From an uncultured Dehalococcoidia bacterium (GTDB lineage Bacteria > Chloroflexota > Dehalococcoidia > Lucifugimonadales > UBA3495), in NCBI GenBank assembly GCA_958296385.1, contig OY282494.1, positions 2,269,537 through 2,333,536 on the forward strand: a DNA stretch of 64,000 nucleotides, given 5' to 3'. The translations under genes were made by a program, and so were the position numbers. Under the pieces are notes generated by a model that was not told the origin of the DNA, made no database searches, and saw nothing but the letters and a program-made list of their open reading frames with translations. The stretch's first letter is position 1. Each line of letters begins with the position of its first letter. This document shows positions 45,652 through 52,541 of this stretch, in pieces.

Positions 45652-46404
45652 ATGCGTTTGGAGAACAAGGTTGCTCTGATTAGCGGCGGCGCGCGGGGGC
45701 AAGGCGCCGCGGAGGCCCGCCTTTTTGCCGGCGAAGGCTGCCGGGTCGTCATTGCCGACGTGCTGGAGGACGAGGGGCGGCAGCTGGAGGCTGAGATTAA
45801 CGAAACGGGCGGCGAGTGCGTGTTCGTCAAGCTGGACGTTACCAGTGAGGACGAGTGGCAGGCTGCCGTCGCGGCCGCCGTGGCGCGGTTTGGCAAGCTG
45901 GATATTCTGGTGAATAACGCCGGCATCTACCGGCAGGTTGGCATCGAGGATACCAGCGTGGAGCTGTGGGACAGCATCTTTGACATCAACGCCAAAGGCG
46001 TTTTCCTCGGCACAAAGGCGGCCATTCCCGAAATGCGCAAGGCGGGCGGCGGGTCTATCATCAACATATCCAGCGTTGCCGGGCTGATTGGCAGCTGGCG
46101 GGCGCCGGCTTACGGCGCTACCAAAGGGGCGGTGCGGCTGTTCACCAAGTCCACCGCCATCCAGCACGCCGCCGACGGCATCCGCTGCAACTCGGTACAC
46201 CCCGGCATCATTGAAACGCCGATGACTACGCCCAACCTGCTGCGGGATGACGCGGCCCGGCAAGCGTCGCTGGAGCGCACGCCCATCGGACGGATTGGGC
46301 AGGCTGAGGACGTTGCCTACGGCGTGCTGTTCCTGGCGTCCGACGAATCATCCTTTATGACGGGCAGCGAACTGGTCATCGACGGCGGGCTGTTTGCACA
46401 GTAA
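45652..46404 (+). CDS. Short-chain dehydrogenase/reductase (first of tandem pair)
   Basis: The 250-residue enzyme has the NAD(P) motif GGARGQG (about 12-18), DVTSEDEW, NNAG (about 86-89), the catalytic Ser in NISSVAG and YGATKGA with its Tyr and Lys (about 152-156). The C-terminal FMTGSELVIDGG is classic. It may oxidise a secondary alcohol. GAGGTGG precedes ATG 45652. The next gene is a close tandem paralogue. A TATACT (45593-45598) may be its -10 box. Confidence 0.92.
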   Translation: MRLENKVALISGGARGQGAAEARLFAGEGCRVVIADVLEDEGRQLEAEINETGGECVFVKLDVTSEDEWQAAVAAAVARFGKLDILVNNAGIYRQVGIEDTSVELWDSIFDINAKGVFLGTKAAIPEMRKAGGGSIINISSVAGLIGSWRAPAYGATKGAVRLFTKSTAIQHAADGIRCNSVHPGIIETPMTTPNLLRDDAARQASLERTPIGRIGQAEDVAYGVLFLASDESSFMTGSELVIDGGLFAQ

Positions 46405-46482
46405 AGGCGTCGTCAATCGAAACGGGGCGCTCATCAAAACGGGGCGCCAATCAAACGGGGTCGGTCAATCAAAACGAGGAGA
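46405..46482. repeat. Short direct repeats between the tandem SDR genes
   Basis: Four degenerate copies of a TCAATCAAAACGGGG-like unit (18-22 bases) lie between the stop of the first SDR and the GAGGAG ribosome site of the second. Confidence 0.7.
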
Positions 46483-46489
46483 ACGGATT

Positions 46490-47236
46490 ATGCGTTTGGA
46501 GAATAAGGTTGCTTTTATCAGCGGCGGCGCGCGGGGGATGGGGGCTGCGGAGGCGCGGCTTTTTGTGCGGGAGGGGTGCAAGGTGGTCATTGGCGATTTG
46601 CGCGATGAGCTGGGGCGGCAGCTGGAGGCTGAGATTAACGAACTGGGCGGCGAGTGCCTGTTTGTCCATCTGGACGTTACGGATGAGCAGTCGTGGCAGG
46701 ATGCGGTGGCGGCGGCGGTGGGCCGCTTTGGCCGGCTGGACATTCTGGTGAATAACGCCGGCGTGTATATGCCGGAAACGGTGGAGAATACCAGCATTGA
46801 GAATTGGGATACTACCATGTCGGTGAACGCCAAAGGGGTTTTCCTCGGCACCAAAGCCGCTATTCCGGAGCTGCGCAAGGCCGGCGGCGGGTCTATCGTC
46901 AACATATCCAGCGTTGCCGGGCTGGTGGGCAATCACATCTCGTCGGCCTACACTGCGTCCAAAGGGGCGGTGCGGCTGTTCACCAAGTCAACCGCCATCC
47001 AGCACGCCGCCGACGGCATCCGCTGCAACAGCGTCCATCCCGGCACGATTGAAACCGACATGACCGCCGACCTGCTGGCCGCCGGCGGGCGGGAGGATCG
47101 CCTGAACCGCACGCCGCTGGGCCGTTTGGGCCAGGCCGATGACATTGCTTACGGCGTGCTGTTTCTGGCGTCGGACGAGGCATCCTTTATGACGGGCAGC
47201 GAACTGGTCATTGACGGCGGGCGGACGGCGATGTAG
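46490..47236 (+). CDS. Short-chain dehydrogenase/reductase (second of tandem pair)
   Basis: The 248-residue paralogue of the preceding gene begins MRLENKVAFISGGARGMG and keeps NNAGVY, NISSVAG and YTASKGA (Ser-Tyr-Lys). The C-terminal FMTGSELVIDGG is identical. ATG 46490 with GAGGAG is chosen over an upstream start that would lie in the repeat spacer. Duplication probably occurred in this lineage. Substrates unknown. Confidence 0.92.
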   Translation: MRLENKVAFISGGARGMGAAEARLFVREGCKVVIGDLRDELGRQLEAEINELGGECLFVHLDVTDEQSWQDAVAAAVGRFGRLDILVNNAGVYMPETVENTSIENWDTTMSVNAKGVFLGTKAAIPELRKAGGGSIVNISSVAGLVGNHISSAYTASKGAVRLFTKSTAIQHAADGIRCNSVHPGTIETDMTADLLAAGGREDRLNRTPLGRLGQADDIAYGVLFLASDEASFMTGSELVIDGGRTAM

Positions 47237-47260: not shown

Positions 47261-47318
47261 GATGCCGCCGTATCACTGATGCAGCCGTAATCTCCGATGC
47301 AAACGTAATCTCCGATGC
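47261..47318. repeat. Short direct repeats ahead of the channel gene
   Basis: Three copies of a GTAATCTCCGATGCA-like unit precede, and the last one includes, the chosen ATG 47315. Slippage could move the start codon. Confidence 0.7.
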
Positions 47319-48184
47319 AATTGTTAGCGGGAAAGTTCAGCCTGTTGCAGTGCCGGCTGCCGGGCGCCAGCGTGTACGCCAAGTTTCAGCACGCGGTGTT
47401 TCACGTGCTGGAGGCCGACTCTACCGGGCCGGCGCGGGTGTTGGATTTTGTGATATTCGGGCTGGTGCTGTTCAGCGCCGTCAACCTGGCGGTGGGCAAT
47501 CCCCGGCTGGAGTTCTTTTTCGTCAGCGTTTTCGCATCAGAGTACATAATCCGCCTGTGGTGCATCGTGTGGCACCGGGATTACCGGCAGGGCGGGTTCA
47601 AGGGGCGGCTGCGGTACGCGACGACCAACGCCGCCGCCATCATTGACTTTATCGCCATCTGGCCTACGCTGGTGGTGATGATTATATTCGGCGAGGTGGA
47701 AGTGCTGCCCATCTTTCGGCTCATATCGCGGCTGATAATGACGGGGCGGCGCTTTCCGGCGATGCGGCTGATGGGGACGGTGATGCTGCGGTCGGCAACG
47801 CAGCTGGTGAGCGTGCTGGTGACGCTGGGGGTGTTCTGGCTGGCGGCGGGCTACCTGATGCACTCCGCCGAATCGCAGCTGCCCGGCGGCAACCACGAGC
47901 AGTTCGGCACCATCGGCGAATCGCTGTGGGCGTCGGTGGTGGTGCTAACCACGCTGCCGTCGGTGGAGGTGGTGCCCGGCACGCTGGCCGGGCGGGTCAT
48001 CGCCGGGTTCATCGCCCTGCTGGGCATCGGCCTGTTCGCGCTGCCCGCCGGCATCCTGACGTCCAACTTTCTGGACGCCTACCAGCAGGAGCGCGAAAAC
48101 GCCGGCAAACCCGAAGTGCCAACCTGCTACGTCCAGGCCGGGGCGGGTGAACCGGCCCTGGCCGGCGCAGCGGGGGATGGGTGA
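47315..48184 (+). CDS. Voltage-gated-type ion channel with non-canonical selectivity filter
   Basis: The 289-residue protein has six helices of the Kv type, with an S4-like segment rich in Arg (FRLISRLIMTGRRFPAMRLM, about 133-152) and a pore loop before the last helix. The pore helix ends T212-T213-L214-P215-S216-V217-E218, then VVPGT. KvAP-type channels read TTVGYGDVVP there, so the GYG signature is replaced by PSV. The S6-like AGFIALLGIGLFALPAGIL is normal. Potassium selectivity is therefore doubtful; it may be a divergent cation channel. No SD-like sequence supports the start strongly. Confidence 0.8.
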   Translation: MQLLAGKFSLLQCRLPGASVYAKFQHAVFHVLEADSTGPARVLDFVIFGLVLFSAVNLAVGNPRLEFFFVSVFASEYIIRLWCIVWHRDYRQGGFKGRLRYATTNAAAIIDFIAIWPTLVVMIIFGEVEVLPIFRLISRLIMTGRRFPAMRLMGTVMLRSATQLVSVLVTLGVFWLAAGYLMHSAESQLPGGNHEQFGTIGESLWASVVVLTTLPSVEVVPGTLAGRVIAGFIALLGIGLFALPAGILTSNFLDAYQQERENAGKPEVPTCYVQAGAGEPALAGAAGDG

Positions 48185-49979: not shown

Positions 49980-50163
49980 TGCGCCCTCCCCAAGTCCGTA
50001 TCAATTGCAATCCAACGATTAGCCCGCAGTATAACCCCCCGGCACACCGGCTGTCATTGAGCTGCCCGTCATTGAACCGCAGGCCGTTGAACCGCGGGCC
50101 GTGCTGCGGGAGATGCGTTGACCGCCGGTTGGCGGGCGGCTACACTTGGGGTTGATTTATCCG

Positions 50164-50853
50164 ATGTATTCATTGCCCCAACGACTCCTTGCCGAAGCGG
50201 TGGGCGCGGCGTTTTTGCTGATGGCCGTCGTTGGCAGCGGCATCGCAGCCGAACGGCTCAGCCCGAACGACGGGGGACTCCAGCTGTTTGAGAACGCGGT
50301 GGCAACGGCGTTTGCGCTTACTGCGCTCATCTGGGCCTTTGGGCCAATATCCGGCGCGCATTTCAACCCGGCGGTGACCTGGGCCGAGGTGGTGCAGCGG
50401 ATGCGGCCGGTTAAGGAAGGCGTCGCTTACAGTGTCGCGCAGGTTGCCGGCGGCATTGCTGGCGTCGTGCTGGCCAACCTGATGTTTGGGCTGCCGGCGG
50501 TGCAGTGGTCGCAAACCCGGCGCAGCGGGCCGGAGCTGTGGCTGGCCGAGGTTGTCGCTACGCTGGGGCTGCTGATGACTATATTCCTCATCGCACGCAC
50601 CCGGAGCGGAGCGGTGGCGGTGGCGCCGGCGGTGGGGCTGTACATCGGGGCGGCCTACTTTTTCACGTCGTCAACCAGCTTTGCCAACCCCGCCGTAACG
50701 GTGGCGCGGATGTTCTCCGATACCTTTGCCGGCATACACCCGGCGTCGGCGCCGGTGTTTATCGTAATGCAGGCTGCTGGCGCCGGGCTGGCGGTGGCGC
50801 TGGTGTGGGCGCTGCGGCGGCGGGCGATTGACGAGCCGGGCGGGTGCGCCTAA
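50164..50853 (+). CDS. MIP-family aquaporin/glycerol channel
   Basis: The 229-residue channel has six membrane helices and the two half-helix NPA signatures GAHFNPAVT (about 60-68) and FANPAVTVARM (about 180-190). Water, glycerol or arsenite-type solutes are possible; the residue set does not decide. ATG 50164 is preferred over upstream alternatives. It is followed 9 bases later by a small gene. Confidence 0.88.
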   Translation: MYSLPQRLLAEAVGAAFLLMAVVGSGIAAERLSPNDGGLQLFENAVATAFALTALIWAFGPISGAHFNPAVTWAEVVQRMRPVKEGVAYSVAQVAGGIAGVVLANLMFGLPAVQWSQTRRSGPELWLAEVVATLGLLMTIFLIARTRSGAVAVAPAVGLYIGAAYFFTSSTSFANPAVTVARMFSDTFAGIHPASAPVFIVMQAAGAGLAVALVWALRRRAIDEPGGCA

Positions 50854-51275: not shown

Positions 51276-52541
51276 TCACTGAACCAAGGCGTCGTCGTCA
51301 ACCGGGCCGTCGTCTAATCGTACCGGGGCGGCGGTGAGGGTTGCCATCAGATGGGGGACGTCGCGGCGGTAGGCGCCTTTGCGGTCTTTGCGGGGGCGGA
51401 GGGTGGTTAGCCGGCTGCGGCGCAGGAATTGGCGCAGGTTGTCGTCGGCGTCGGTCAGGCAGTCGTCCATTGCTACGCTGACCAGGTACACGCGGCGGGC
51501 GTCGGATGAGGTTTGGCGCTGGTAGATGTCGTTGTAAAGGCGCCAGCAGTAGGCGCTTTCCAGGGCGGCGCGGGAGCAGAGCAGGGCTACCCGGTCAAAG
51601 TTGCGAAAGCGGCTCATGGGCGGGAAAACCTGGGTGTTATAGACGGTGGCTTCGTCGTCGGCCAGCAGGCTCCAGCATTGCAGGCCGCGCTGGCGCAGCT
51701 CGGTTTCCAGCCAGTCCACGATGGTGCAATCCAGCACGGAGCCGATGAGCAGGATGCGGCGGTATTCGGGGGCGGACGCCGGCAGTTGCAGACGTCCGTT
51801 GATGAAATCATCCGGCACGCCGGCGGAGCGGAGGAACAGTTCGGGGAGGCCGGCGCCGGAGCGGGCCAGGGTGTCGGCGCCGACGATGCTGGGGCCGTCG
51901 TGCCGGACGGTTTCCAGGGCCAGGGCCGAGCTTAAATCGCAATCGCCGAACAGCGTCATGTCAACTACGCAGTCTTGCAGCAGGGCGCGGTCGAGGCGGG
52001 TGCGGATCAGGGAGGCGCGGCGCAAATCGCAGCGGGTCAGGTTGGCGACGTCCAGGCCGGCCGAGCCGAGGCGGGCGCCGCTGAGGTTGGCGTCGGTCAA
52101 GTCGGCCATGGTCAAGTCGGTTTCGGTCAGGTTGGCGCCGGAGAGATTGGCGCCCACCAGCGTGGCAAAGGCGGCGTCGCAGTTGGACAGGTCGGCGCCG
52201 CGCAGGTCGGCGTTGTCCAGGTTGCAGCCGCGCAGATTGGAGCGGATGAACGACACGCCGGCGGCCTGCGCGTCGGTGAAAACCGCCCGGTTCAGGTTGC
52301 AGCGGGAGAGGTGGGCTTGACGCAGGGAGGCGCCGGCAAAGTTGCCGTTGCGGAGGTCGGCGGTGGTGAGGTCGATTTCGCTGAGGTCATCGTAGGCGAG
52401 GTCAACGCCGGGCATACGGATGCCGCTGAGGTAGGCGCCGGAGAGGTTGAGGCGCTCCCGGCGCTGAAAGAACTGCGCCCGCCAGCGGTTGATGGCAAAG
52501 GTGCGCCGTTTGGCGATGGCGACGTGTTCCGGATTGGCCAA
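51276..52541 (-). CDS. Pentapeptide-repeat protein with C-terminal TIR-like domain
   Basis: This 421-residue protein starts at TTG 52541 with GGAG upstream. Residues about 30-200 are A(D/N)Lxx pentapeptide repeats forming a right-handed helix (for example NLSGANLTETDLTMADLTDANL). A C-terminal domain (about 260-400) fits the TIR fold: YRRILLIGSVLDCTIVDW, ALLCSRAALES and a RRVYLVSVAMDD strand. The catalytic Glu of NAD-cleaving TIRs, expected after WC, is replaced by Leu in ESAYCWRLY, so it may be a non-enzymatic signalling module. The fusion may act in defence or signalling, unproven. Confidence 0.8.
   Translation of the reverse strand: MANPEHVAIAKRRTFAINRWRAQFFQRRERLNLSGAYLSGIRMPGVDLAYDDLSEIDLTTADLRNGNFAGASLRQAHLSRCNLNRAVFTDAQAAGVSFIRSNLRGCNLDNADLRGADLSNCDAAFATLVGANLSGANLTETDLTMADLTDANLSGARLGSAGLDVANLTRCDLRRASLIRTRLDRALLQDCVVDMTLFGDCDLSSALALETVRHDGPSIVGADTLARSGAGLPELFLRSAGVPDDFINGRLQLPASAPEYRRILLIGSVLDCTIVDWLETELRQRGLQCWSLLADDEATVYNTQVFPPMSRFRNFDRVALLCSRAALESAYCWRLYNDIYQRQTSSDARRVYLVSVAMDDCLTDADDNLRQFLRRSRLTTLRPRKDRKGAYRRDVPHLMATLTAAPVRLDDGPVDDDALVQ

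Follow-up and report, generated by a model that had tools for sequence, protein, structure and literature searches.

A Kv-type channel of one Dehalococcoidia genus with a glycine-free TLPS[L/V]E sequence in place of the K+ selectivity filter

The channel gene and its neighbourhood

The window (the whole 64,000-nucleotide stretch that was analysed) contains, at 47315-48184(+), an uninterrupted open frame of 289 codons encoding a one-domain, 289-aa protein of the Kv fold (Table 1), here called the TLPSVE protein after its filter sequence. Pfam scanning of this protein recovered Ion_trans (7.7e-22) and Ion_trans_2 (5.9e-8) and no CNBD; about 26 residues remain beyond the S6 helix. Among sequences in the PDB, the best matches were KCNQ1, KCNQ2, KCNQ4, and KCNQ5 (E about 2e-20), followed by Kv4 and Kv1, and the KCNQ alignment is ungapped across the filter, so that T212-T-L-P-S-V-E218 occupies the position of TTVGYGD or TTIGYGD. 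This ranking, together with the S6 stretch FALPAGIL common to KCNQ, identifies Kv/KCNQ rather than Nav/Cav channels as the nearest sequences.

The AlphaFold model (mean pLDDT 85.5) contains helices S1–S6, a short pore helix, and a loop. Its underlying alignment comprised 52 sequences, including 44 K+-channel relatives from viral contigs; as a monomer built mostly on TVGYGD channels, the model supports the overall fold, while the geometry of the loop that carries the new filter is unreliable. Compared with PDB structures, it matched Kv4.2 (Z 17.7 over 229 residues, rmsd 2.7) as well as other Kv and KCNQ channels. The Pfam domains, the model, and the Kv4.2 match all indicate six transmembrane helices with a re-entrant pore helix. 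By sequence and predicted fold, the TLPSVE protein belongs to the Kv branch of the voltage-gated channel superfamily.

Table 1. Features of the channel gene and its surroundings (window positions).
Feature	Position	Strand	Basis or remark
Two tandem short-chain dehydrogenases	45652..47236		order with channel conserved
Short-chain dehydrogenase (SDR), directly upstream of channel gene	46493..47236	+	conserved neighbour in genus
Short direct repeat (cgtaatctccgatgca and variants)	47262..47325		just upstream, reaching into channel start codon
CDS, 6TM Kv-fold protein with TLPSVE filter, 289 aa	47315..48184	+	ORF, Pfam, PDB matches, model
S1, residues 39-60	47429..47494	+	AlphaFold model helix
S2, residues 63-86; conserved E66, F73, E76-Y77, R80-x-W82	47501..47572	+	alignment, model
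S3, residues 106-125; conserved D111, P117	47630..47689	+	alignment, model
S4, residues 129-146	47699..47752	+	alignment
S5, residues 161-187	47795..47875	+	model
Pore helix, residues 200-211	47912..47947	+	alignment, model
Replaced selectivity filter, T212-T-L-P-S-V-E218	47948..47968	+	sequence, orthologue alignment
S6, residues 224-252, with GIGLFALPAGIL as in K+-channel relatives	47984..48070	+	alignment, segment selection
MIP/aquaporin-family gene	50146..50853	+	Pfam MIP 4.3e-26
Pentapeptide-repeat-like protein	51276..52541	-	A-N/D-L-x-x repeats

The SDR, 91–95% identical to that of the window, lies directly upstream of the channel in 12 of the 13 genomes of the genus that carry the channel gene (the window included); in the thirteenth (L006), it is about 1.4 kb away. 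The two genes may be functionally linked; a role of the SDR as a redox subunit resembling Kv beta subunits would be speculation. Downstream genes vary between species. In the window, a MIP/aquaporin-family gene lies two genes downstream of the channel, and no match to it was found beside the channel in the other fetched flanks. The pentapeptide-repeat-like protein has distant matches (31–33% identity) near the channel in three other loci (L001, L003, L004).

Residues of the filter, its support, and the voltage sensor

Aligned with TVGYGD relatives, the filter carries the replacements V214 to L, G215 to P, Y216 to S, G217 to L or V, and D218 to E, leaving no glycine and introducing a proline. 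In the pore helix, W205 is kept, while the second Trp has become A206 and a conserved Thr has become I/V210. In Shaker numbering, which is our own mapping by alignment, W435, T439, and Y445 are lost, while W434 (W205) and the D447 acid (E218) persist. Thus, only the first Trp remains of the Trp-Trp/Thr/Tyr cuff that supports the filter of K+ channels. Retained alongside this Trp/acid pair are T212-T213 and S6, in which every residue from G237 to L248 is the one most frequent among relatives, including the stretch GIGLFALPAGI found in K+-selective relatives. The open frame and the replacement of TTVGYGD by TTLPSVE, as called in the first-pass annotation, are borne out by these alignments and the Pfam scan, and the predicted model, with its full set of helices, pore helix, and pore loop, speaks against a fold without a pore loop. 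Of the further statement that pore helix and S6 are intact, only the part concerning S6 holds.

In Shaker, hydrogen bonds join W434 to D447 and T439 to Y445, and in Kv2.1, Kv2.2, and Kv1.2, W-to-A/F or Y-to-F changes of the W-Y pair abolish K+ current while surface protein is not lost; the effect of W435F in Shaker is milder (PMC8001480). In Kv channels, the residues at the positions of W(206), T(210), and Y(216) are packed against one another, and their joint loss is better accommodated by a rebuilt loop than by random damage; it fits replacement of the filter Tyr and its supporting partners as one unit. That the altered loop might still be an unusual K+-selective filter is very improbable. 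The retained T212-T213, W205, acid at 218, and S6 would be in keeping with such a channel; however, both filter glycines and the Tyr are gone, a proline lies inside the filter, and single changes in the Trp-Tyr pair are enough to eliminate the K+ current of mammalian Kv channels (PMC8001480). Because loss of the Trp-Tyr bond alone has this effect, K+-selective conduction by the TLPSVE protein is very unlikely.

In S4, the positions of R1, R2, and the last basic residue are occupied by E129, P132, and M142, respectively; R135, R139, and R145 are kept, and R146 is new. Arg or Lys at every third position is therefore not observed, and although the S1–S6 layout of the initial reading is supported by Pfam and the model, its "clear" Arg-rich S4 is in fact charge-poor. 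The TVGYGD paralogue in the same genus also has no basic residues at R1 and R2, which indicates that a weak S4 is not peculiar to the TLPS[L/V]E clade.

Distribution, relatives, and selection

The gene is present in 13 of the 14 genomes of the window's genus, which are mostly metagenome-assembled. Genome-collection searches recovered orthologues at 79–85% identity in Chloroflexota, under the labels Dehalococcoidia, SAR202 cluster, and Chloroflexi. The K+-channel signature T-x-G-Y/F-G is replaced by TTLPS[L/V]E in all distinct orthologues (13/13), each reading TTLPSLE except for the window's own TTLPSVE. A DNA pattern combining T-T-(hydrophobic)-P with a correctly spaced S6 motif A-L-P-A-G matched once in each of the 13 genus genomes with the gene, while 236 other genomes of the order gave no match; likewise, a DNA-pattern search of 59 further genomes sampled from the class found no TLPS filter. 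A search of viral contigs found no TLPS[L/V]E orthologues. In family-wide and sampled phylum-wide protein searches, the strong out-of-genus matches that were read carry TVGYGD, most weaker phylum matches not being among those read. The one-genus distribution holds for the collections searched, which are of genomes rather than metagenomes and are sampled beyond the order.

TTVGYGD stands in every one of the 55 distinct Kv-like non-orthologues whose filter could be read, which further opposes the reading of the altered loop as a K+ filter. These include an in-genus paralogue found in all 14 genomes, and therefore in every TLPS[L/V]E carrier, that is unlinked to the TLPS[L/V]E gene and only about 35–39% identical to it. 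The TLPS[L/V]E proteins form a single clade (100/100 support), though its placement within the Kv tree is uncertain given a long branch and midpoint rooting. Copies of the ordinary paralogue include L042 (G000:C1:1246345-1247001), L029, and L036-L048; of these, L029, L036, and L037 were read to the end and have a C-terminal CPHCG motif. A fragmentary frame from position 1218 of L031 (G023:C17) has a Kv-like S6, GIGMFALPAGI, and no recognisable filter upstream, and may be a broken channel gene. Elsewhere in Chloroflexota, the two-repeat Kv-like channels of family f159 (L248:2643-4910(+), L250:600-2813(+), and L249:19-2985(+)) are single ORFs of about 740–990 aa with two 6TM Ion_trans domains and the filters TTTGYGD and CTVGYGD. 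Pfam recovers two Ion_trans stretches each in L248 and L250, and L248 holds another two-repeat ORF upstream of the first.

Orthologues show a median pairwise dN/dS of 0.11, which indicates purifying selection, and synonymous codons vary inside the filter while its residues are fixed. The filter and following turn (residues 214–223) have the lowest pN/pS in the protein, 0.021, as compared with 0.064 for S6 and for the S4-S5 linker, 0.099 for the pore helix, 0.245 for S2, and about 0.15 overall; as the segment comprises ten codons and the ranking carries no significance test, this order is indicative. The constraint on 214–223 argues that the loop is not drifting freely, and the conserved filter points to a functional membrane protein, probably not an ordinary K+ channel.

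These data bear directly on whether the motif reflects a decaying gene or an error of sequencing or assembly. The motif is itself odd, and one genus genome (G008, 86% complete) does not carry the gene; however, the orthologues come from 13 independent genomes with intact frames, the low dN/dS given above, and a conserved neighbour gene, leaving this explanation a very small probability. Conservation across the 13 genomes rules out a sequencing error or a pseudogene. G008 also has no close orthologue of the upstream SDR (best match 66%, vs. about 92% elsewhere); this points to a segment that is absent or was not assembled, and not to decay of the gene. By itself, this genome has 41 SDR matches, a large expansion. 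The earlier judgement that the replacement is not simple decay is thus strongly supported by purifying selection across the genus, strongest at the filter. The family with the same filter that the first-pass annotation proposed to look for exists, as the orthologues of one genus; TVGYGD homologues, which it had named as a sign of sequencing error if close, are confined to the paralogue and other distant relatives at about 30–40% identity, every close homologue reading TLPS[L/V]E.

Proposed function and comparison with known channels

The alternatives originally offered, selection of a different ion or an absence of conduction, remain the right pair. We give an even chance to the first, in the form of a tetrameric cation pore without a K+ filter and with little or no K+ selectivity. 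One-domain, six-helix subunits of the Kv fold presumably form a tetramer. In the genus ancestor, TVGYGD and the cuff of side chains holding its Tyr would have been swapped as a unit for T-L-P-S-L/V-E, with the S6 inner gate helix, the two Thr at the end of the pore helix, and the acidic mouth residue kept through the swap. Four subunits would then form a pore with at most an inner Thr site and a ring of four Glu (E218) at its mouth, through which cations might pass with little or no discrimination for K+. Gating would be via S6 and, with the outer arginines of S4 missing, would depend only weakly on voltage. Such a pore could also simply be plugged by the proline and the two bulky residues that stand where glycines were, and a role that is purely structural is likewise compatible with conservation of the loop.

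That plugged state is the essence of the alternative, in which the protein is a non-conducting homologue, acting either as a silent subunit (e.g., one that damps or tunes the TVGYGD paralogue by co-assembly) or as a membrane sensor without ion flow. We attach to it an appreciable probability, though one well short of even. The paralogue is available in every carrier genome, the filter is without any glycine, and loss of the filter support network abolishes K+ conductance in Kv channels (PMC8001480). Against this, the two genes are unlinked and of low mutual identity, no segment is under tighter constraint than the new filter, and the S6 gate helix, needless in a plugged pore, is kept almost letter for letter. 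The constraint on filter and S6, together with the retained acid, favours the cation pore over the silent homologue.

Going further, the Kv scaffold may here carry a new class of cation-selective pore: the glycine-free T-L-P-S-[L/V]-E filter would have replaced the K+ signature at the level of a bacterial clade, separately from CNG channels, and would confer a new ion selectivity. We hold this proposal tentatively and with a little less than even confidence. Few motifs in membrane proteins are as conserved as the TxGYG filter, and a bacterial clade in which filter and support network have changed together under strong constraint would constitute a natural experiment in K+-pore conversion. Small size and a TVGYGD paralogue in the same genome suit the protein to direct structural and electrophysiological study. 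No published description of non-GYG Kv-like bacterial clades was found in the open-access literature searched, which is not proof of absence.

The TLPSVE protein shares with KCNQ/Kv channels (Kv7, Kv4, and bacterial TVGYGD channels) the one-domain 6TM fold, the S2 and S3 acids, the start of the pore helix, the TT before the filter, and, with KCNQ, the FALPAGIL of S6. The clade differs from them in the filter with its Tyr, the second pore-helix Trp, the Thr, and the change of S4 R1 and R2 to E and P. CNG channels are non-selective cation channels with a shorter filter, and their proteins carry a C-linker and a CNBD. Metazoan CNG channels, with a TIGE filter, likewise form a whole clade of the Kv superfamily in which GYG has been replaced (PMC7576140), and they too have an acid in the filter region. 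However, the TLPSVE protein has an unshortened filter, no CNBD, and a different sequence, and does not have the defining features of CNG channels. The NaK channel is a 2TM channel. This bacterial protein is also related to K+ channels, has a modified filter (TVGDGN), and shows no K+ selectivity (PMC9822992). NaK retains both glycines, whereas the TLPSVE protein has none. Bacterial Nav/Cav-type channels are one-domain 6TM proteins with non-GYG, Glu-containing filters. In these respects, TLESW-like filters such as those of the CavMr type (PMC7041947) resemble that of the TLPSVE protein. These channels, however, belong to the Nav/Cav branch, whereas the relatives of the TLPSVE protein, by sequence and by model, are Kv/KCNQ channels.
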